Shown one piece after another: positions 3,148 to 12,053 of a DNA stretch of 32,049 nt (its first letter is position 1; every line of letters begins with the position of its first letter). The translations under genes were made by a program, and so were the position numbers. The notes beneath the pieces were generated by a model. It was not told the origin of the DNA. It saw only the letters and a list, made by a program, of their open reading frames with translations, and did no database searches. Source of the DNA: Planctomycetota bacterium (GTDB lineage Bacteria; Planctomycetota; UBA1135; GCA-002686595); assembly GCA_029212845.1 (NCBI GenBank), contig JARGPD010000005.1, positions 31,852-63,900 of the forward strand. The letters are read 5' to 3'.

Positions 3148-5172
3148 ATGTCCCAAGCGAACGCACCCGCCGTGGCTCCCGCCACGCACCCGAAGGTTAC
3201 CGTCCTACGCCTCTTCCTCGGCTGCCTCATCGGCTGCCTCATCGGCTTCGCTCCCGGGCCGGGGGTCGCGCCTGGACTGTACGTCACCCTGCTCGGGATG
3301 CTGCTGCTGCTGCGCGCGCCGCTCTTGCCCGTGCTCGGCCTCGGGATCGTCACCAAGCTGCTGTCCCTGGTCACCGTCTCGGTCACCTACCAGCTCGGCG
3401 TGGCCTTGCTCGACGGTCCCACCCAGGGCCTCTTCCAGACCGCGATCAACGCGCCCTTCCTCGCGCTGTTCGGCCTCGAGTACTACACGGTCACCGGCGG
3501 CTACGCCCTCGGGCTGCTGCTCGCGATCGCGGCCACGCTGATCCTCGTACGTGGAGGCCGAGCCCAGAGCGAAGCGAAGCCCAAGGGCGTGCTGCGCCCG
3601 GTCGGGGTCGCCTTCCTGGCGGTGCTCGTCGGCGGCGTCTGGATGCTGCAGTCGACCGCGGCCGAGGGCATCCTCAGCACCCAGGCCTCGAAGGGACTCA
3701 GCGCGATCAACGGCGCGACCGTCGACATCGCCGGCCTCGACCTCGACATCGCCGAGGGCAAGCTCGAGGTCACCGACCTCGCCTTCGCCAACCCGCGCTC
3801 GCTCAACACCGACCTGTTCCGCGGGATCGAGCTGAGCGCCGACGTGGCCAGCAGCGACCTGATGCGCAAGCGCCTGCACGTCGAGCGCCTCGTGGTGCGC
3901 AGCGCCAAGAGCGGCGTCGAGCGCGCCGTTCCGGGCGTGCGCGTGGGCGCCCCGCCCGAGCCCGAGGTGCCAGAGCCCAAGGAGGGTGAAGGCACGATCG
4001 ACGACTACCTGAAGGACTGGAAGGTCTGGAAGGAGCGCCTCGCCCAGGCCCGCGAGTGGCTCGAGAAGATGGACAGCGAGGCCGAGGAAGAGACGCCCAC
4101 AGCCGAGCTGCCCCTGGGCCAGCGCACCGCCAGCCATCTGCTCCAAGGCGCGCCGTCCCTGCTCGTCTCCGAGCTGGCCGTCGAAGGCCTCGAGCTCCCC
4201 TGGCTGGGGGGCGAGGTCTTCCAGATCTCGGCCCACAACCTCTCCAGCCAGCCCAGCCTGGTCGACGGCGCGATGGAGATGGTCTTCGAGTCCACGAGCG
4301 ACCTCTTCCGCACCTCGGTGACCCTGCCGAGCGGACTGGCCCCCGGCTCGATCGAGCTCAACGTGCGCAACATCCAGGTCGACTCGATCACCTCGATGCT
4401 CAAGCTCGGCGAGGGCTCGGTGCTGCGTGGCGGCACGATCGAGCTGAGCCTCGACGGACCCTGGCAGGGCGGCCGCGCCGGCTACCTGGACATGCCCCTC
4501 GACATCACCCTGCGCGACATCGAGCTGGGCCTGTCGGGCTCGAAGACCTTCCCGATCGCCGAGCTGCGCCTGCCGATCCACGTGCGCGGTCCGCTCGAGG
4601 GCCTCAACCTCAGGCTCGACGCCAAGGCGCTCAGCAAGGCGCTGGTCGATGCCGGCGCGAAGGAGCTCGCCAGCTTCGTCGAGGCCGAGAAGAAGAAGCT
4701 GATCGACGACGGCAAGAAGCTCCTGCAGGACGAGTTCGACAAGCAGATCGGCGGCAAGCTCGAGGAGCTGATCGGTGCCGAGCTCGACATCGACGTGACC
4801 GACCCGGGCGCGGCCCTCGAGGACCTCGAAGCGGCGGCCTCGGCCAAGCTCGAAGCCGAGCTCGCGGCCGCCAAGCTCGAGGCCCGCGCAGCCATCGAGG
4901 CCAAGGTCTCGGCCGCCCTCGCGAGCGCACCGAAGCTCGATGAGTACCTCAGCGCCGAGGAGCTGGCAGCCTTCCGCGTCGAGCTGACCACGAGCCTCGA
5001 GGCCGACCCCGCAGCCGATCCTTTCAAGCTGGTCCAAGACCTGGTCAAGGCCAAGGGCGAGGAGAAGCTCAAGGAGGCGGCCAAGGACGCCGCCAAGAAG
5101 GAGCTTGAGAAGAAGGGCCTCGGCGGCCTTGGTGGCATCGGCGAGAAGCTCTTCGGCGGCGGCGGCAAGTAG
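3148..5172 (+). CDS. Multi-pass membrane / AsmA-like fusion protein (TIGR03546 plus TIGR03545-like)
   Basis: The product is 674 aa in two parts. Residues 18-168 contain about five hydrophobic segments (for example RLFLGCLIGCLIGF and LGLLLAIAATLILV) and resemble the small membrane family TIGR03546. From about 175 there is a beta-rich AsmA/TIGR03545-like region (ASKGLSAINGATVDIAGLDLD, then ELSADVAS...LHVERLVV) made of short 'inner product plus strand' repeats. Residues 500-660 are charged, alanine-rich and helical, probably coiled coil, ending in GGGGK. From memory, the two families are usually separate neighbouring genes, so this looks like a fusion. AsmA-like proteins act in envelope lipid transport or homeostasis, and that role is inferred here. 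The start ATG has AGGA seven bases upstream. Confidence 0.65.
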   Translation: MSQANAPAVAPATHPKVTVLRLFLGCLIGCLIGFAPGPGVAPGLYVTLLGMLLLLRAPLLPVLGLGIVTKLLSLVTVSVTYQLGVALLDGPTQGLFQTAINAPFLALFGLEYYTVTGGYALGLLLAIAATLILVRGGRAQSEAKPKGVLRPVGVAFLAVLVGGVWMLQSTAAEGILSTQASKGLSAINGATVDIAGLDLDIAEGKLEVTDLAFANPRSLNTDLFRGIELSADVASSDLMRKRLHVERLVVRSAKSGVERAVPGVRVGAPPEPEVPEPKEGEGTIDDYLKDWKVWKERLAQAREWLEKMDSEAEEETPTAELPLGQRTASHLLQGAPSLLVSELAVEGLELPWLGGEVFQISAHNLSSQPSLVDGAMEMVFESTSDLFRTSVTLPSGLAPGSIELNVRNIQVDSITSMLKLGEGSVLRGGTIELSLDGPWQGGRAGYLDMPLDITLRDIELGLSGSKTFPIAELRLPIHVRGPLEGLNLRLDAKALSKALVDAGAKELASFVEAEKKKLIDDGKKLLQDEFDKQIGGKLEELIGAELDIDVTDPGAALEDLEAAASAKLEAELAAAKLEARAAIEAKVSAALASAPKLDEYLSAEELAAFRVELTTSLEADPAADPFKLVQDLVKAKGEEKLKEAAKDAAKKELEKKGLGGLGGIGEKLFGGGGK

Positions 5173-5201: not shown

Positions 5202-6086
5202 CTAGAACAGCGTGCCTTGGCCCTCGGGCCGCACGACGTCGGCGAGGTCGGGATAGGTCGCGACGATCTCCGGCGGACCGGGGACCGGTGCGCCGCGCAG
5301 CGCAGCCAAGAGCTCGAGCCCGTTGGCCACGGCCTTGCCGCCGAAGTGGTTGTTGGTGACCACGTAGGTGTCGCCGCCGGCAGCCGCGAGCTTGCGCGCG
5401 TACTCGGCAAAGGTCTCGACCTCCTCGCGACCGTACATCCAGTTGTAGCTGTCGTCGCGTCCCTTGGCCGGGTCGTACCAGTCCGCCGCGTTGCGGCCGT
5501 GCAGGCGCAGGTAGCCCAGGGGCCCGAGGAAGTAGGGCAGCCCGTCACCGCTGCCGATCGGCGGCACCACCGACGGCGACACCGGCATGTCGATGTGCGC
5601 GAGGTTCAAGCCCTCGGCCTCGAGCATCGCGAGGGTGCCGTGCTGGAACCACGAGCGGTGGCGCAGCTCGAGCACCAGCGGCAGGTGGCCGAACAGCCGA
5701 CCGAGCTCGAAGAGGCGCTCGCGGTTGTGCGGCTGGTCCGCGAAGTCCTGGTGGAACTGGGCGAGCACGGCGCCGAGGCGGTTCGACTCGAGCATCGGCT
5801 CGAGGGCCCGGTTGTAGACCGGTGCCGCGGCGGCCTCGTAGCGACCATGGGTGAAGTCGCGGTGCAGCTTCATCGCGAAGCGGAAGTCCGGCCGCTCGGC
5901 GACCCGCTCGACCCAGCCCTGGACGTGGGTGCGCTGGGGCAGGGCGTAGAAGCTGCTGTTGATCTCGATGCAGTCGAAGAAGCGCGCGAGGTACTCGAGC
6001 GGGTGGAAGTCCTTCGAGCTCGTGCGCGGGTAGGCGCGGCCCTTCCAGTCCGCGTAGGACCAGCCGGCGACGCCGACGCGGATCAC
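5202..6086 (-). CDS. DUF72 (YecE-like) family protein
   Basis: The product is 294 aa. It begins (V)IRVGVAGWSYADWKG, the diagnostic N-terminus of DUF72, a TIM-barrel family of unknown reaction. Further family landmarks are EINSSFYALP, FAMKLHRDFTH, LELRHRSWF, YLRLHGRNA and YVVTNNHFGG. The frame is open upstream to 6758, but that part is only a shadow of the acyltransferase gene. The GTG at 6086 is taken as start because the family begins exactly here and because GTGA overlaps the upstream gene's stop by four bases, which suggests translational coupling. The biochemical function is unknown; metal or nucleic-acid-related roles have been suggested for the family. Confidence 0.88.
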   Translation of the reverse strand: MIRVGVAGWSYADWKGRAYPRTSSKDFHPLEYLARFFDCIEINSSFYALPQRTHVQGWVERVAERPDFRFAMKLHRDFTHGRYEAAAAPVYNRALEPMLESNRLGAVLAQFHQDFADQPHNRERLFELGRLFGHLPLVLELRHRSWFQHGTLAMLEAEGLNLAHIDMPVSPSVVPPIGSGDGLPYFLGPLGYLRLHGRNAADWYDPAKGRDDSYNWMYGREEVETFAEYARKLAAAGGDTYVVTNNHFGGKAVANGLELLAALRGAPVPGPPEIVATYPDLADVVRPEGQGTLF

Positions 6087-6811
6087 CGCGTCCTCCAGTG
6101 CCGGTCGATGTCCTCGGCCGGCCAGTCCGGCTCGACACCGAGCAGCTCGAAGCCGCGCGCCTCCGCCGCCATCATGCGCCGCTGCATCTCGTCGCAGGCG
6201 GTCTTGAGCTCGTCCTCGCTGGCGCGGCGATCGACGAACAGGGGCTCGCCGTAGACCAGCGCCACGCGCGCGCGCCACTTCGGGATCGTGAAGGCGTCCC
6301 AGCTGTTCACGTGCCAGGCGCGGTCGGCGACGAAGCCGCAGGTCAGGATCGGATAGCCCGTCGCGCGTGCCAACCAAGCCACGCCGGCGGCGCCCGAGTG
6401 GCGCGGTCCGCGCGGCCCGTCGGGCGTCACGACCACCGTGCCCCCCACCCGCAGGCTGCGCAGCATCTCGCGCAGGGAGCGCGCGCCCGTGGTCGAGGAC
6501 GAGCCACGGATGACCCCCATGCCAAAGCGCGGCAGCAGCGTGTCCATCAGGTCGCCGTCCTTGCTGGGCGAGACCAGGATCGTGTAGTCGCCGCCCTCGT
6601 GGTGGGCGAGGCCGAGCATCATACGCCCGTGCCACAGGGTCATCAGGCAGCCCTTCTCCGCGCGCGCTAGGTCGAAGTGCTCGACGCCCTCGACGCTCGT
6701 GCGCCAAGAGCGCGCCAGGCGTCGCACGACGAAGGGAGCGACCTGGGGCATGAGCCACGCGCCGACCTTGCGGCGGGTGCGTTTGATCCAGCTATGGCGG
6801 CGCGCAGACAC
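6083..6811 (-). CDS. DUF374 lysophospholipid-acyltransferase-like protein
   Basis: The product is 242 aa. It carries LWHGRMM near residue 60, the DUF374 version of the acyltransferase H-x4-D block. It also has ILVSPSKDGDLM, IRGSSS and VVTPDGPRGP, all typical of the DUF374/LPLAT family. These membrane-associated enzymes transfer an acyl chain to a lipid or lipid A-like acceptor; the acceptor here cannot be predicted. The start is a GTG, and the basic N-terminus (SARRHSWIKRTRRK) fits a membrane-surface protein. It overlaps the downstream DUF72 gene by four bases. It is the third gene in the minus-strand run that begins at 10865. Confidence 0.85.
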   Translation of the reverse strand: MSARRHSWIKRTRRKVGAWLMPQVAPFVVRRLARSWRTSVEGVEHFDLARAEKGCLMTLWHGRMMLGLAHHEGGDYTILVSPSKDGDLMDTLLPRFGMGVIRGSSSTTGARSLREMLRSLRVGGTVVVTPDGPRGPRHSGAAGVAWLARATGYPILTCGFVADRAWHVNSWDAFTIPKWRARVALVYGEPLFVDRRASEDELKTACDEMQRRMMAAEARGFELLGVEPDWPAEDIDRHWRTR

Positions 6812-6909: not shown

Positions 6910-9336
6910 TCAGGGAGTGAGGTCGTCGCCCGCGCCGCCGTCGTCGGTCCCGTTGGGACCGAAGGAGCGGATGTGGTACTCCGACGCGGACACGCGCTCG
7001 TAGTAGAAGCTGCGCCCCCACCCGTCGACCGGCACCTCGGACATGTTGAGGTAGCCCTCGGGGTAGGACGAGGTCGAGGACACCAGGTCCTCGAGCTTGG
7101 CCGGGTAGTCCCCGTTCTCGAGGTTGTAGATCAGGAGGCCGAGGTCCACCAGGGACAGGTTGACCTCGGTCATCGAGGCCTCGGTCGAGAGGGGCGCACC
7201 GCGCGCTCCACCCAAGCCGATCTGGCCGGCGTACTCGGGCTCGGTCCAGACGACCTCGGGGGACATCGACTCCGTCGTGCCCAGGAAGACCGTCGGGATG
7301 AGCGCGGCCGCCGCGCCGCCGACGATCAGCGGGACCTCGGGACCGAAGGAGCTCACCTTGCGCGTGAAGAGGTGGTCGCCGCGGAAGCGCGTGACCGAGG
7401 TCTCGGGCAGGAAGTGCCGCGAGAACAGCTCGGGATCGGGCAGGGCCGCGGCGAAGCCTTCCGGGAGACCGAGCTCGGCTGGGACCATGGCGGCGAAGGC
7501 GCGACCGGTCCCGTAGTACGCCGACAGCATGGCGCCGATGTCGAAGTAGTAGGCGTCGTGGATGTCCGCGGGTAGCTTGCCGTCCTCGCCGACGAGGCTC
7601 GCGAAGAAGGGGTGCGCACCGCGCTCGTACTCCTCGCCCTTCGAGCGCTGGCGGATCATGCGCTTGATCAGGGTCGACGAGTTGGAGAACCACAGGTTGC
7701 CGTCGATGATCGTGTAGCTCGGCGAGAAGCCGATCGGGACGCCGAGGTCGAGCACCGTGTAGTCGTTGCCGCGGTACGGGCGGTGGGACACGCCGAAGTC
7801 CGGCTCCATCTCCGCCGCGAAGTCACACAGGCCGTCGAGGGTGGCCATGACCGCCTCACCGTTCCGGACGGGCATCACGCCGTAGACCTGGGGCGGCGCG
7901 AGGCTCAGCACCGGCTGCATCCAGAAGGCTATCTCGCCCCCGAAGTTTGCGATCAGGTCGCCCTCGAGGTCGATGCCGCGCTCGAGCAGCAGCTCGATCA
8001 ACTCCTCCTCGCCGGTGGTCACCTCGGTCACGTAGCCCCAGAAGGCGACGGGGTCGAGGGACGTGATCTGCGCGAACAGCGCGTCGTTCGGGATCCATGC
8101 GGCGGAGCCATCGAGCGGGTACGGCGTGGCGCCGTTCGCGGGGCGCGTGCTGTCGCTCTGGTAGGTGCCGTCGACGAGCCGCGTCTGCCAGGCGCTGCCG
8201 GTCCCGTAGAAGCCGAAGAACTCGAACAGCGAGGACACGTTGGCGAGCGACTCGGCCAGCATGCCTTCGGTCGGCACACCCCGGAAGCCGAGCACGGCAC
8301 CCTGCCAAAGGACCGCGCCGGCGTCGTCGTGGACCGCGCCGAGCAGCTGGTCCAGGCGACCCGCGCCGCCCAGGGATTCGGGGGATGCCTGGCCGGACAG
8401 GGCCGCCTGGCCGACCCGGTGCACCGCCTCACCCGACACGGTGCCGAGGGTGATCAAGAGGGTCCGTCCGTGCTGCTGGAGGCTGGCCTCGAGCAGACCT
8501 CCGCCCGACGGCATGCCCAGGTTCACCGGGTCGATGTGATACAGGTTGGCGAGCTCGGGAGCGTCGCCGTTCATGTCGATCACGTCGGTGAAGGGCACCT
8601 CGTCACGCAGGCGCCCATCGATCATGCCCAGCATCCCGGCCATGCCACCGGCGAGCTCGTCGTCCACGAAGCGCACGGCCAGCTCGACGCCGACCACCTC
8701 GAACACGCGCGCCAGCACGTACTGCTCGAAGCCGGAGTCCGTGCTCCAGTCGGCATCCAGGCCCGAGCCACCCGGGACGCCGTCGGCGCCAAGGCTGCTC
8801 AGCTCGTAGACGCCGTCGCTCACCGTATACAGGTAGGGGTGACCGAAGGGGTCGAGCAGCTCGGACGGCTCGCGATCGAGCTCGGCCAGCTCCTCGGGGG
8901 GGCCGCCCTCGTCGAGCTCGTACATGAAGATGTCCCAGTCGAGCGCGTCGAGCCCGAGCAGCACGTCGTAGACGACCGCGCCCTCGGCGACCAGCTCACC
9001 GACCTTCGACATGTCGAGCTGCAGCGACAGGGAGATGCCCTCGATCCCCTCGAGGATCGGCAGGGTGTCGCGGACGATTTCCGCGGGCAGCAGCTCCATC
9101 AGGTCGCTGACGTGCTCGATGCCGAACAGCCCAAGCATGGGGCCGAGGTCCTCGTCCTCGAGCAGCTGCATGATCGCGCCCGAGCGCCAAGCCTCGGAGA
9201 AGGCCGGCAGGTTCGGGACGTCGAGGTACAGGCCGGCTTCGGCGAGGTGCAAGTCCGCCGCGTCTTGGGGAGCGACGGCGGGAGCGAGGCACAGGGCAAG
9301 GCTCGTCAGCATGGCAAGGAGATACGCTCGGGACAC
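6910..9336 (-). CDS. Large exported protein with two GspG-like pseudopilin modules
   Basis: The product is 808 aa. Residues 1-23 form a signal peptide (MSRAYLLAMLTSLALCLAPA). About residues 158-200 read DPFGHPYLYTVSDGVYELSS followed by LGADGVPGGSGLDADW. This closely follows the C-terminal calcium-loop region of type II secretion major pseudopilin GspG. A large middle region (about 200-660) has no motif I recognise with confidence; it faintly resembles DUF3352-type proteins. A hydrophobic segment lies at about 668-686. Residues 722-808 again look like a GspG domain: a helix with NLENGDYPAKLEDL, then VDGWGRSFYYE and a Gly/Asp-rich end. No N-terminal prepilin cleavage motif (GFTLIE) is present. 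The protein is probably envelope-located, and any link to type II secretion is inference. Confidence 0.7.
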   Translation of the reverse strand: MSRAYLLAMLTSLALCLAPAVAPQDAADLHLAEAGLYLDVPNLPAFSEAWRSGAIMQLLEDEDLGPMLGLFGIEHVSDLMELLPAEIVRDTLPILEGIEGISLSLQLDMSKVGELVAEGAVVYDVLLGLDALDWDIFMYELDEGGPPEELAELDREPSELLDPFGHPYLYTVSDGVYELSSLGADGVPGGSGLDADWSTDSGFEQYVLARVFEVVGVELAVRFVDDELAGGMAGMLGMIDGRLRDEVPFTDVIDMNGDAPELANLYHIDPVNLGMPSGGGLLEASLQQHGRTLLITLGTVSGEAVHRVGQAALSGQASPESLGGAGRLDQLLGAVHDDAGAVLWQGAVLGFRGVPTEGMLAESLANVSSLFEFFGFYGTGSAWQTRLVDGTYQSDSTRPANGATPYPLDGSAAWIPNDALFAQITSLDPVAFWGYVTEVTTGEEELIELLLERGIDLEGDLIANFGGEIAFWMQPVLSLAPPQVYGVMPVRNGEAVMATLDGLCDFAAEMEPDFGVSHRPYRGNDYTVLDLGVPIGFSPSYTIIDGNLWFSNSSTLIKRMIRQRSKGEEYERGAHPFFASLVGEDGKLPADIHDAYYFDIGAMLSAYYGTGRAFAAMVPAELGLPEGFAAALPDPELFSRHFLPETSVTRFRGDHLFTRKVSSFGPEVPLIVGGAAAALIPTVFLGTTESMSPEVVWTEPEYAGQIGLGGARGAPLSTEASMTEVNLSLVDLGLLIYNLENGDYPAKLEDLVSSTSSYPEGYLNMSEVPVDGWGRSFYYERVSASEYHIRSFGPNGTDDGGAGDDLTP

Positions 9337-9395: not shown

Positions 9396-10865
9396 CTAGG
9401 CGTCGGCGAAGGCCTTCAGGTCGTCGCCTGCGGCCTCGAGCGCTCTCTCGAGCTCGGCCAGCTGGTCGGTGAAGTCTTCGCCAGAGGCGAATGCGGCCTT
9501 GAAGGCCGCATGTTTCGTCTTCACTTCCGTGTTCTCACCATCGAGCAGGAAAGCCACCAGGAGGCCGGACTCGTTCAGGAGCTTGCTGGAGCCATCCAGG
9601 TCGTCCACGGTCAGCTTCATGGTGAGCATGCGCTTGACCGGGTCGAGGCTGCCGGTGCGCAGGATGTTGGACACGGACCACTTGCGCAGTGCCTTGGGGT
9701 CGGCGCCGGGGGTCTTGTCCAGGCGGTAGCGCTCCACGTAGGTCGCCGCTCCGTAGCGCAGCCAGTCGGGCAGCTTCTTCTCCGTGAGGAAGTCGTCGAC
9801 GTCGAGCTCCTTCTTCTTGTGGAAGGCGGCCACGGCCTTGGGGCTCGGGTCGAGGGCTTCGACGAAGGAGAGGGCGGCCGCATGGCGGGTGAAGAAGGGG
9901 CCGAAGCGGTTCGCGTTCTTGTCCTCCTTGTCCCAGTAGGCGACGCCCCCACCAACGAGGTTGATGCCGCCGTGGAACCAGACCTCGCCGAAGTAAGCGC
10001 CGTGGATCGACGACCAACCGCGCACCTCGGTGGGCGGCACGCCGAAGGCCTGGTCGCCCGCTGCGAAGGTCCCGTACTGGCCCGAGCTCTTCATGACAGC
10101 GAAGGGCATCGGCACGTCCGGCGTCTTGCCGAAGATGCGCACGAGGTCGCGCACGGTGCTCTCGGCCTCGCCGATGGCCTGCATCGCGAGGTCGCGGTCC
10201 ACGGTCGTGTAGATGTGGAAGCGGCCCGACTCCGAGGGGATCACCCAGGGCCGACTCGGCAGGGAGTGGTAGCGATTCGCGTCCTCGAGGCTCTTCCAGG
10301 TGTCGCCACACTTGAACTTGCCAGCCTCGGCCTCGGCGACCTCTTCGGGCGGGATCCAGGTCAGGTCATGGCGCACCCAGCCGTCCTGCATGCGCTGGTA
10401 GTCCTCGGCGCTGACCCACTGGCCAGCCTCGTCGCGCACCATGCCCGCCTCGAGCTTGGCGATGTCGTCGGGGTGCGCCCAGGTGTCCTTGTAGCGCACC
10501 CAGCCCTTGGCCTTGGCCTCCTCGGCCAGCTGCTTCTTCTTGTGGGCCTCGAGCTTCTTCTCGGACTTGAACCACTCGCCTTCGTAGTAGATGTGCCCCG
10601 AGGCCGCCCGGGCCTCCTTGTGGTCGGGGTCGACCTTGATGATCTCGCGCAGGACCTTCTTGCCTTCACGCTCCAGGCCGTAGGAGTCGCAGTAGTTGTA
10701 GACCTTCCACAGCTCGTCGACGTCGTCGCCCGCAGCCTCGAAGCGACGCTCGAACTCGTCCGCGGGGTCCTGGATGGAGGTCTCGATCCCGGCGGGCTCG
10801 AGGACCTGGGGGGCGGGCGCCTCGGGCGACAGCCCGAACAGAAGGGTGCAGATCAGCAGGCTCAT
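9396..10865 (-). CDS. Secreted protein with a degenerate peptidase_MA/DUF1570-like domain
   Basis: The product is 489 aa from the ATG at 10865, which follows a GGAG about eight bases upstream and gives a short signal peptide (MSLLICTLLFGLSPEAPA). Residues 40-95 look TPR-like. Residues 95-200 contain repeated short modules around GEWF, GWVRYKDTWAHPDD, GQWVSAEDY and GWVRHDLTWIPPEE, common in large planctomycete proteins. Residues 210-445 resemble gluzincin-type domains: LPDWLRYGAATYVERY (365-380) matches the usual 'P-WL-EG-A-Y' segment and LNESGLLVAFLL a later helix. However, the expected HExxH appears as FFTRH (324-328), so activity is unlikely. The function is unknown. It lies 59 bp upstream of the 808-aa gene and is probably co-transcribed with it. 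Confidence 0.65.
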   Translation of the reverse strand: MSLLICTLLFGLSPEAPAPQVLEPAGIETSIQDPADEFERRFEAAGDDVDELWKVYNYCDSYGLEREGKKVLREIIKVDPDHKEARAASGHIYYEGEWFKSEKKLEAHKKKQLAEEAKAKGWVRYKDTWAHPDDIAKLEAGMVRDEAGQWVSAEDYQRMQDGWVRHDLTWIPPEEVAEAEAGKFKCGDTWKSLEDANRYHSLPSRPWVIPSESGRFHIYTTVDRDLAMQAIGEAESTVRDLVRIFGKTPDVPMPFAVMKSSGQYGTFAAGDQAFGVPPTEVRGWSSIHGAYFGEVWFHGGINLVGGGVAYWDKEDKNANRFGPFFTRHAAALSFVEALDPSPKAVAAFHKKKELDVDDFLTEKKLPDWLRYGAATYVERYRLDKTPGADPKALRKWSVSNILRTGSLDPVKRMLTMKLTVDDLDGSSKLLNESGLLVAFLLDGENTEVKTKHAAFKAAFASGEDFTDQLAELERALEAAGDDLKAFADA

Positions 10866-10966
10866 GGTGGTCTCCGTGGCTCTCCTAGACGAGCCACCCA
10901 CAGGATATCGAAGCACGGGGCCAAGGGAGTGTCCTAGGCCAGCGAAGGGCTTTTCCAGCCCCAATT

Positions 10967-10985: not shown

Positions 10986-12053
10986 ATGCGCGGCCTTCAC
11001 CCCACCCCCAAGAACCCCCGAGACATGGCTGATCACAAGGCCCCCCCCCAGGTAACGATCGCACCCTACGAAGAAGCCTCCCAGCTTCAACAGATGGTGG
11101 ATACGTACTGGAAGCCCTTCCTCGGCGTCGCCGTCGTCCTCGCTGCCCTGATCGTCTGGCAGCAGAGCAGCCAGCACGCCGCAGAGAAGGAGCTCGACGC
11201 CAGCTGGGATTCCCTCTCCGCGCGGGTCGAGCTCGCCGGCATCGGCAGCACGACCCAGCTGCCCTCCGCCGCCGTCCTGGACCAAGCACTCGCCTCCGAT
11301 GGCGTCAAGGGGACCGTCGCGGCCCCCTGGGCCATGGCCCTCAAGGTCCAGACCCTGCTCGAGGGCAAGGACTGGGATGGTGCCGAGGCCGCCCTGGCGG
11401 CCCTCGAGAGCGCCTACCCGGACCACTTCCTGGTGAAGGCCAAGCTTCCGGTGGGTTCCGACGGTGCCCTGGCGACGATCCCCGAGCAGCAGCGAGCCCT
11501 GATCAGCAGCCGTCGCCAGTTCGAGAGCACCCACGTCAACCTCTTCGAGCTGCCCCCGGTCCCCGAAGGGGCCACGCGGGTCAAGCTGGAGACCAGCTCC
11601 GGCGACTTGGTCGTCGCCCTGTACGCCGACCGTGCCCCGCTGCATGTGGGGAACTTCCTTAAATTGGTCTCAAGTGGGTTCTATGATGGCACCAAGTTCC
11701 ACCGTGTGGTGCCTGGCTTCATGGTTCAGGGTGGCGACCCGAACACCAAGATCGGGGACGCGAGCACCTGGGGCCAGGGCGGCCCGGACTACAAGGTGCA
11801 GCCCGAGATCAGCGACCTGTTCCACTTCAAGGGCGTGCTCGCAGCAGCCAAGATGCCCGGCGAGACCGACAGCAGTGGCAGCCAGTTCTACGTGACCACG
11901 GGCAACGCCCACCACCTCGACGGCCAGCACACGGTGTTCGGCGTCCTGGAAGAGGGTGCCGACGTCCTGCGCATCATCGAGAACTCTCCGGTCGTCCCCG
12001 GCACCGAGCGCCCCGAAGAGCCGACCACCTTGGTCAAGGCGACCGTGCTCTAG
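10986..12053 (+). CDS. Membrane-anchored cyclophilin-type peptidyl-prolyl isomerase
   Basis: The product is 355 aa. A cytoplasmic stretch of about 40 residues is followed by one membrane helix (44-59, PFLGVAVVLAALIVW). A helical region of about 120 residues then resembles the TPR_21/YfgM type of periplasmic chaperone partner. From 197 a complete cyclophilin domain follows, with FHRVVPGFMVQGGD (238-251), GSQFYVTTG (298-306) and LDGQHTVFG (311-319). It should catalyse cis-trans isomerisation of prolyl bonds on the outer side of the cytoplasmic membrane, helping fold exported proteins. It is divergent from the secreted-protein gene at 10865 and ends 28 bp before a clear terminator, so it is likely monocistronic. 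The codons for residues about 219-250 are notably less G+C-rich than the rest. Confidence 0.9.
   Translation: MRGLHPTPKNPRDMADHKAPPQVTIAPYEEASQLQQMVDTYWKPFLGVAVVLAALIVWQQSSQHAAEKELDASWDSLSARVELAGIGSTTQLPSAAVLDQALASDGVKGTVAAPWAMALKVQTLLEGKDWDGAEAALAALESAYPDHFLVKAKLPVGSDGALATIPEQQRALISSRRQFESTHVNLFELPPVPEGATRVKLETSSGDLVVALYADRAPLHVGNFLKLVSSGFYDGTKFHRVVPGFMVQGGDPNTKIGDASTWGQGGPDYKVQPEISDLFHFKGVLAAAKMPGETDSSGSQFYVTTGNAHHLDGQHTVFGVLEEGADVLRIIENSPVVPGTERPEEPTTLVKATVL

Follow-up and report, generated by a model that had tools for sequence, protein, structure and literature searches.

A leaderless DUF3352-like protein of a Planctomycetota bacterium carries two predicted GspG-type pseudopilin domains

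RESULTS

Gene, parts, and neighborhood

The window, a 32,049-nucleotide stretch of contig C145 (positions 31852-63900) in a Planctomycetota draft genome (4.68 Mb, 87.7% complete), contains an 808-codon frame, here P0001, that runs from a GTG at 9336 to a stop codon at 6910-6912. Its coordinates and its length of 808 residues are as given in the first-pass annotation; we add the strand, which is minus. Since the homologues in an 11-row alignment align to P0001 from about M9, the ATG at 9312 is as plausible a start as the GTG. The gene, its parts, and its neighbors are as follows.

5202 to 6080, minus strand: DUF72 gene, next neighbor, kept in 11 of 11 loci
6083 to 6811, minus strand: DUF374 gene, downstream neighbor, kept in 11 of 11 loci
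6910 to 9336, minus strand: P0001 gene, 808 aa; GTG start, alternative ATG start (M9) at 9312
9265 to 9336, minus strand: signal-like hydrophobic N terminus, residues 1-24 (hydropathy; pLDDT <50)
9013 to 9249, minus strand: core domain 1, first part, residues 30-108, PsbP/DcrB/TiME-like in the structure model
8737 to 9012, minus strand: module 1, residues 109-200, a complete GspG-like soluble domain set between two strands of core domain 1
8746 to 8793, minus strand: calcium-type loop of module 1, residues 182-197 (D185 and D196 invariant in 11 of 11)
8389 to 8736, minus strand: core domain 1, second part, residues 201-316 (structure model)
7345 to 8109, minus strand: core domain 2, residues 410-664, DUF3352-like, TP0453-like fold in the model
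7279 to 7353, minus strand: conserved SSFGPE motif and weak hydrophobic segment, residues 662-686 (alignment, hydropathy)
7186 to 7278, minus strand: variable linker, residues 687-717, acidic in most homologues
6913 to 7185, minus strand: module 2, C-terminal GspG-like domain, residues 718-808 (Pfam, profiles, model)
6919 to 6966, minus strand: calcium-type loop of module 2, residues 791-806 (residue conservation in 29 rows)
9396 to 10964, minus strand: upstream neighbor, 522 aa, without a Pfam family; relatives adjoin the homologue in 10 of 11 loci
10986 to 12053, plus strand: divergent gene for a cyclophilin-type peptidyl-prolyl isomerase, kept in 11 of 11 loci

The neighborhood counts come from BLAST of the loci against the genes of the window only; a ParB gene also lies near the homologue in 10 of the 11. 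Six of these loci are likely from the same genomes as those in the 30-row alignment described below, and thus the two sets are not independent. P0001 is not in a type II secretion cluster: it lies on contig C145, the GspG gene of this genome lies on contig C73, and the members of the block that were tested are not type II secretion genes. DUF374, which we take to be an acyltransferase-like family, offers a hint, and only that, of envelope lipid work next door. Elsewhere in the window, a 674-aa frame (3148-5169, plus strand) has a subthreshold match to DUF748 (16.7 bits against a cutoff of 50).

The host protein and its homologues

An initial scan for related loci with P0001 as the query recovered no relative. 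Within a set of 61 genomes, P0001 found matches in 48 at E 0.001, many of them to T2SSG domains of other genes; 29 loci from this search (L009-L037), together with P0001, make up the 30-row alignment, and all 30 rows match T2SSG. A query with the core only found matches in 191 of 294 Planctomycetota genomes. Among 30 loci kept from that core search, which include the window's own and several from the 30-row alignment, the C-terminal module is present in 19 and missing in 11, and module 1 is present in 4.

The host of the two modules is a non-pilin, DUF3352-like protein. Pfam searches of P0001 itself gave no match to DUF3352 (PF11832), but the family matches 3 of the 30 rows at E up to 0.1 (best, 3.3e-6), and two distant proteins that share the P0001 core profile, L063 and L065, pass its cutoff. 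The full-length model of P0001, built from 11 sequences, has a mean pLDDT of 70.5 and suggests a core of two alpha/beta domains of related fold. Residues 23 to 316 align with TiME (7cu8; Z 9.5, 132 aligned) and residues 410 to 674 with TP0453 (Z 10.2, rmsd 5.9, 195 aligned; Foldseek E 5.7e-3), with DcrB and PsbP ranking lower; Foldseek gave this model no match below E 0.001.

Two GspG-type domains

The first-pass annotation had noticed two GspG-like segments, and sequence models and predicted folds bear this out. The Pfam T2SSG model (PF08334) already detects both domains, scoring 64.2 bits (E 1.3e-17) over two stretches of P0001; in the search of its own genome, these stretches reach 42.2 and 29.8 bits, the cutoff being 21. 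The NCBIfam GspG model, TIGR01710, also matches in two stretches, at 54.9 bits, which is below its equivalog cutoff of 88.85. By itself, P0001 gave only weak GspG matches and one row for an unrelated dehydrogenase when run with phmmer against the PDB. GspG ranked first in the PDB with a profile built from 11 module 1 sequences (1.4e-13) and with one built from 29 module 2 sequences (5.3e-10), and hhalign joined the two profiles at 99%. Given the Pfam scores, the PDB profile matches, and the hhalign result, neither module is a chance resemblance.

The structure predictions gave a pseudopilin fold for both segments. The outcome that would have refuted the first reading, a lack of this fold in both, thus did not arise. 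In the full model, ten-residue blocks reach pLDDT values of 81 to 93 over residues 121-200 and 82 to 90 over residues 721-790, falling below 50 at 666-716 and to 65 and 54 in the last blocks (791-808), which hold the loop of module 2. Module 2 in this model (713-808) aligns with EpsG (3fu1) at Z 10.9, with 93 of 112 residues aligned. The VIA table for the full model gives one row per entry, so a second GspG row for module 1 was impossible, and module 1 was therefore folded alone. This model (101 residues, 7 sequences) has a pLDDT of 90.0; Foldseek ranks 1-12 are all GspG or pseudopilus chains, and the VIA alignment with pseudopilins has a Z of 12.2, an rmsd of 1.7, and 89 of 112 residues aligned. 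In the models, then, both modules have the fold of the GspG soluble domain. For module 1, the initially marked residues 158-200 are indeed GspG-like but too short an interval; the whole soluble domain, its long helix included, spans about 109-200.

Calcium-type loops

Candidate acidic ligand positions, which the first reading had suggested checking, are kept across homologues in both loops. Besides D185 and D196, G183 and G190 of module 1 are invariant in all 11 sequences. In module 2, D798 is kept in 28 of 29 rows and D804 and D805 in all 29; at position 795, 17 rows have D and 12, P0001 among them, have N. The loop residues were paired with known GspG ligands by sequence only; in PDB 3G20, D117, T122, D125, and two backbone oxygens bind the ion (PMC3396595). 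On this comparison, both modules are putative calcium-binding domains. Against calcium binding are the asparagine of P0001 at the first ligand position of module 2 and the low model confidence of that loop. The strict PERCAL pattern G-x-D-G-x-x-[GN]-[TN]-x-D-D, compared by eye, fits neither loop; both are longer than the pattern.

Leader, signal segment, and internal hydrophobic segment

The absence of a prepilin leader, claimed from the start, held up. P0001 has no Pfam match to the N_methyl family; a loose class III leader pattern occurs in none of the 11 rows of the 11-row alignment and in 3 of the 30 rows of the larger one, in no case directly before a hydrophobic helix. By comparison, the pattern is present in 27 of 34 T2SSG frames from the same genome and its relatives. 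A hidden internal leader at SSFGPE, where a glutamate precedes the hydrophobic stretch, was considered and rejected; both the leader pattern and N_methyl fail there. Since there is no class III leader and no pilin N-terminal helix running into either domain, neither module can join a pseudopilus in the known way.

The seven T2SSG frames in which no leader was found are L085 (cut by a contig end), L105, three frames at L087, L005, and L003. In the genome of P0001, five T2SSG places score above the cutoff: a leader-bearing GspG on C73, the two in P0001, and one each on C243 and C173. The frame on C243 (L003:1-2265, minus strand) is a second non-pilin frame, with T2SSG near the N terminus, at 172-255 of the 755 aa read, a long unassigned remainder after it, and a loop near the PERCAL pattern. 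The frame on C173 (L005:1423-2217, minus strand; 265 aa) has a hydrophobic helix and the T2SSG loop region. In another genome (G024, contig C346), L087 comprises three adjacent overlapping frames, each with a terminal GspG-like domain. The end of L105 (1486-3297, minus strand; 604 aa, start position not fixed) resembles a whole GspG with its hydrophobic helix, preceded by about 470 unassigned residues.

P0001 had been credited with a normal signal peptide. Its N terminus is hydrophobic, but it is short, and most homologues have no basic residues there, so only part of that description stands. Export of P0001 is something we infer, and so are its description as a large envelope protein and the suggested scaffold role. 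The signal-like starts of this family, seen in homologues L038-L047, mostly lack basic residues, a trait that may mislead signal-peptide predictors in this clade.

Similarly, the proposed internal membrane helix corresponds to a real hydrophobic segment after SSFGPE, but a weakly hydrophobic one: its Kyte-Doolittle value is 1.99 in P0001, and the best values average 1.26 over 29 rows (P0001 and 28 homologues). In these rows, the 20 residues before the segment contain 60 K/R and 69 D/E, and the 20 after it 40 K/R and 132 D/E. Four core relatives (L048, L062, L063, and L068) end right behind an SSFGPE-type motif and hydrophobic segment, and the segment may therefore be an ancestral C-terminal tail.

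History of the two modules

A survey of orthologues found that the architecture recurs. Module 2 is the C-terminal end in 28 of 29 homologues; the remaining one, L033, stops before it. This protein and the 11 of 30 core-search loci that have no module 2 indicate that module 2 is not essential to the core. Module 1 is present in 10 of the 29 homologues (11 of 30 rows with P0001), 9 of which also have module 2. It interrupts a core hairpin whose first strand ends at 107 and whose second starts at 215 in the P0001 model; in the 19 homologues that do not have it, the flanking columns are separated by 5 to 57 residues, either short or unrelated.

The carriers of module 1 in the 30-row alignment all come from the window's own family, f1. 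The core tree rejects a single clade of carriers (four changes; AU p 1.5e-16) and is compatible with either repeated gain or one gain followed by losses. The first-pass annotation had spoken of duplicated modules. In a tree of 74 rows, however, a branch with support of 98/87 parts the 29 module 2 rows from the 11 module 1 rows and true GspG, a result to be read with the 95 columns, long branches, and unsettled bootstrap of this tree in mind. Because module 1 groups with true GspG, a second acquisition fits better than internal copying of module 2. With modest confidence, module 1 is probably a separate acquisition from a GspG-like source. A few rows are placed oddly: L003 groups with module 2, L005 falls within module 1, and module 1 from L014 falls within GspG.

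DISCUSSION

The computed architecture, model folds, residue conservation, leader searches, and gene block lead us to favor, as rather probable, a reading of P0001 as an exported, periplasm-facing, DUF3352-like envelope protein with two GspG-fold modules, stabilized by calcium, that act in interaction or as spacers. Non-pilus re-use of the pseudopilin fold, suggested when the gene was first read, is supported by the folds of both modules, the lack of a leader, and the non-pilin, DUF3352-like host. We imagine that module 2 was an old C-terminal addition behind the short hydrophobic segment and a flexible linker, and that some members later took up module 1 in the core domain 1 hairpin, with perhaps several losses or gains. 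Rather than assembling into a pseudopilus, the modules would more likely serve to bind partners or to brace the core. The core domains, for their part, could recognize a protein partner or a ligand that is small or lipid-like, and the GspG domains could serve as rigid contact mediators.

Other readings deserve consideration. The GspG modules might dock on the cell's own pseudopilus or on the assembly platform, making P0001 an accessory that links the core to type II secretion. The fold that packs into a pseudopilus is indeed retained by both modules, and module 1 groups with true GspG in the tree. All 41 genomes searched, that of P0001 included, hold T2SSG matches, among them the leader-bearing GspG on C73, but with T2SSG in every genome, its co-occurrence with P0001 tells nothing. 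The separate contigs of the two genes, the tested block genes outside type II secretion, and the missing class III leader and continuous N-terminal helix make such a role unlikely. The modules might instead be mainly export or sorting handles, with module 2 steering P0001 toward the type II machine or a site in the envelope in the manner of C-terminal sorting domains. The place of module 2 at the extreme C terminus of 28 of 29 homologues would suit this, as would T2SSG on other non-pilin frames. That module 1 is internal, that the domain of L003 lies far from the C terminus, at 172-255 of 755 aa read, and that core proteins persist without module 2 all speak against a handle, and we give this idea little credence.

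If the segment after SSFGPE spans the inner membrane, module 2 would be cytoplasmic, where free calcium is low, and P0001 would be tail anchored, with module 2 a calcium-free protein-binding domain; module 1, embedded as it is in the core, would still lie outside. Some core relatives that end at or near the segment, L062, L063, L071, and L076 among them, agree with a C-in tail anchor, some having basic last residues. In the members with module 2, however, the segment is weakly hydrophobic (mean 1.26), the flank after it is acidic, the opposite of the positive-inside rule and thus an argument against a C-in anchor in these members, and module 2 keeps its acidic loop. We consider a tail anchor quite unlikely. 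Finally, the protein could be a product of chance resemblance, misassembly, or gene fusion in a metagenome-assembled genome (MAG), given that it comes from one draft genome that is 87.7% complete. Homologues in other genomes, and named MAG loci, share this architecture, and the E values and folds are strong; given the homologues, we regard this reading as refuted and its probability as negligible.

One can also envision the GspG domain as a general calcium-dependent plug in Planctomycetota. The modules might then pack with each other or with the cell's own pseudopilus, so that a lipid-binding-like core would be switched or tethered by envelope calcium with no need for prepilin peptidase. This is a speculation that we think has only an outside chance of being right.

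Pilin-type domains are regarded as filament subunits that must pass through prepilin peptidase. Here, a complete GspG domain, calcium loop included, has been inserted into an unrelated, conserved, and probably envelope-located protein and attached to its C terminus as well. It looks like a component put to new use, which one lineage probably acquired a second time. This cautions against calling T2SSG-positive proteins "type II secretion protein" and offers a natural setting in which to ask whether the GspG fold, with its calcium site, functions away from the pilus.

Comparison with known systems

P0001 has in common with GspG/EpsG/PulG/XcpT (PF08334, TIGR01710) the soluble-domain fold and the D/G-rich, calcium-like loop, found in both modules. 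It differs in having no class III leader or continuous pilin helix, in holding two such domains within 808 aa, and in its separate gene context. The core of its relatives matches DUF3352 (PF11832), from which P0001 differs by the appended and inserted GspG domains. TP0453, which has a membrane role, as well as TiME, DcrB, and PsbP, resemble the two core domains in predicted fold only, with sequence identity of at most 12%.

Our literature search, which had little reach into subscription papers, found neither whole GspG domains inserted in a DUF3352-like protein nor a paper on DUF3352. What it returned on PF08334 concerned the type II secretion system of Cytophaga, and the results on Planctomycetes pseudopilin domains included nothing evidently on an architecture of the P0001 type.

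Two related ideas are already published: a pseudopilin-type calcium loop outside pilins (PERCAL; PMC3396595) and pilins joined to other modules (PMC8179133). PERCAL is a pseudopilin-type calcium motif inserted in bacterial animal-type peroxidases, and so, like P0001, places such a loop within a non-pilin protein; the motif there is 11 residues long, whereas in P0001 an entire domain is inserted (PMC3396595). Modular type IV pilins, such as PilB of Streptococcus sanguinis, combine a pilin module with an unrelated, larger module (PMC8179133). In PilB, the pilin module is N terminal and bears the leader, whereas the pilin-like domains of P0001 are leaderless and are inserted into, or appended to, their host (PMC8179133).
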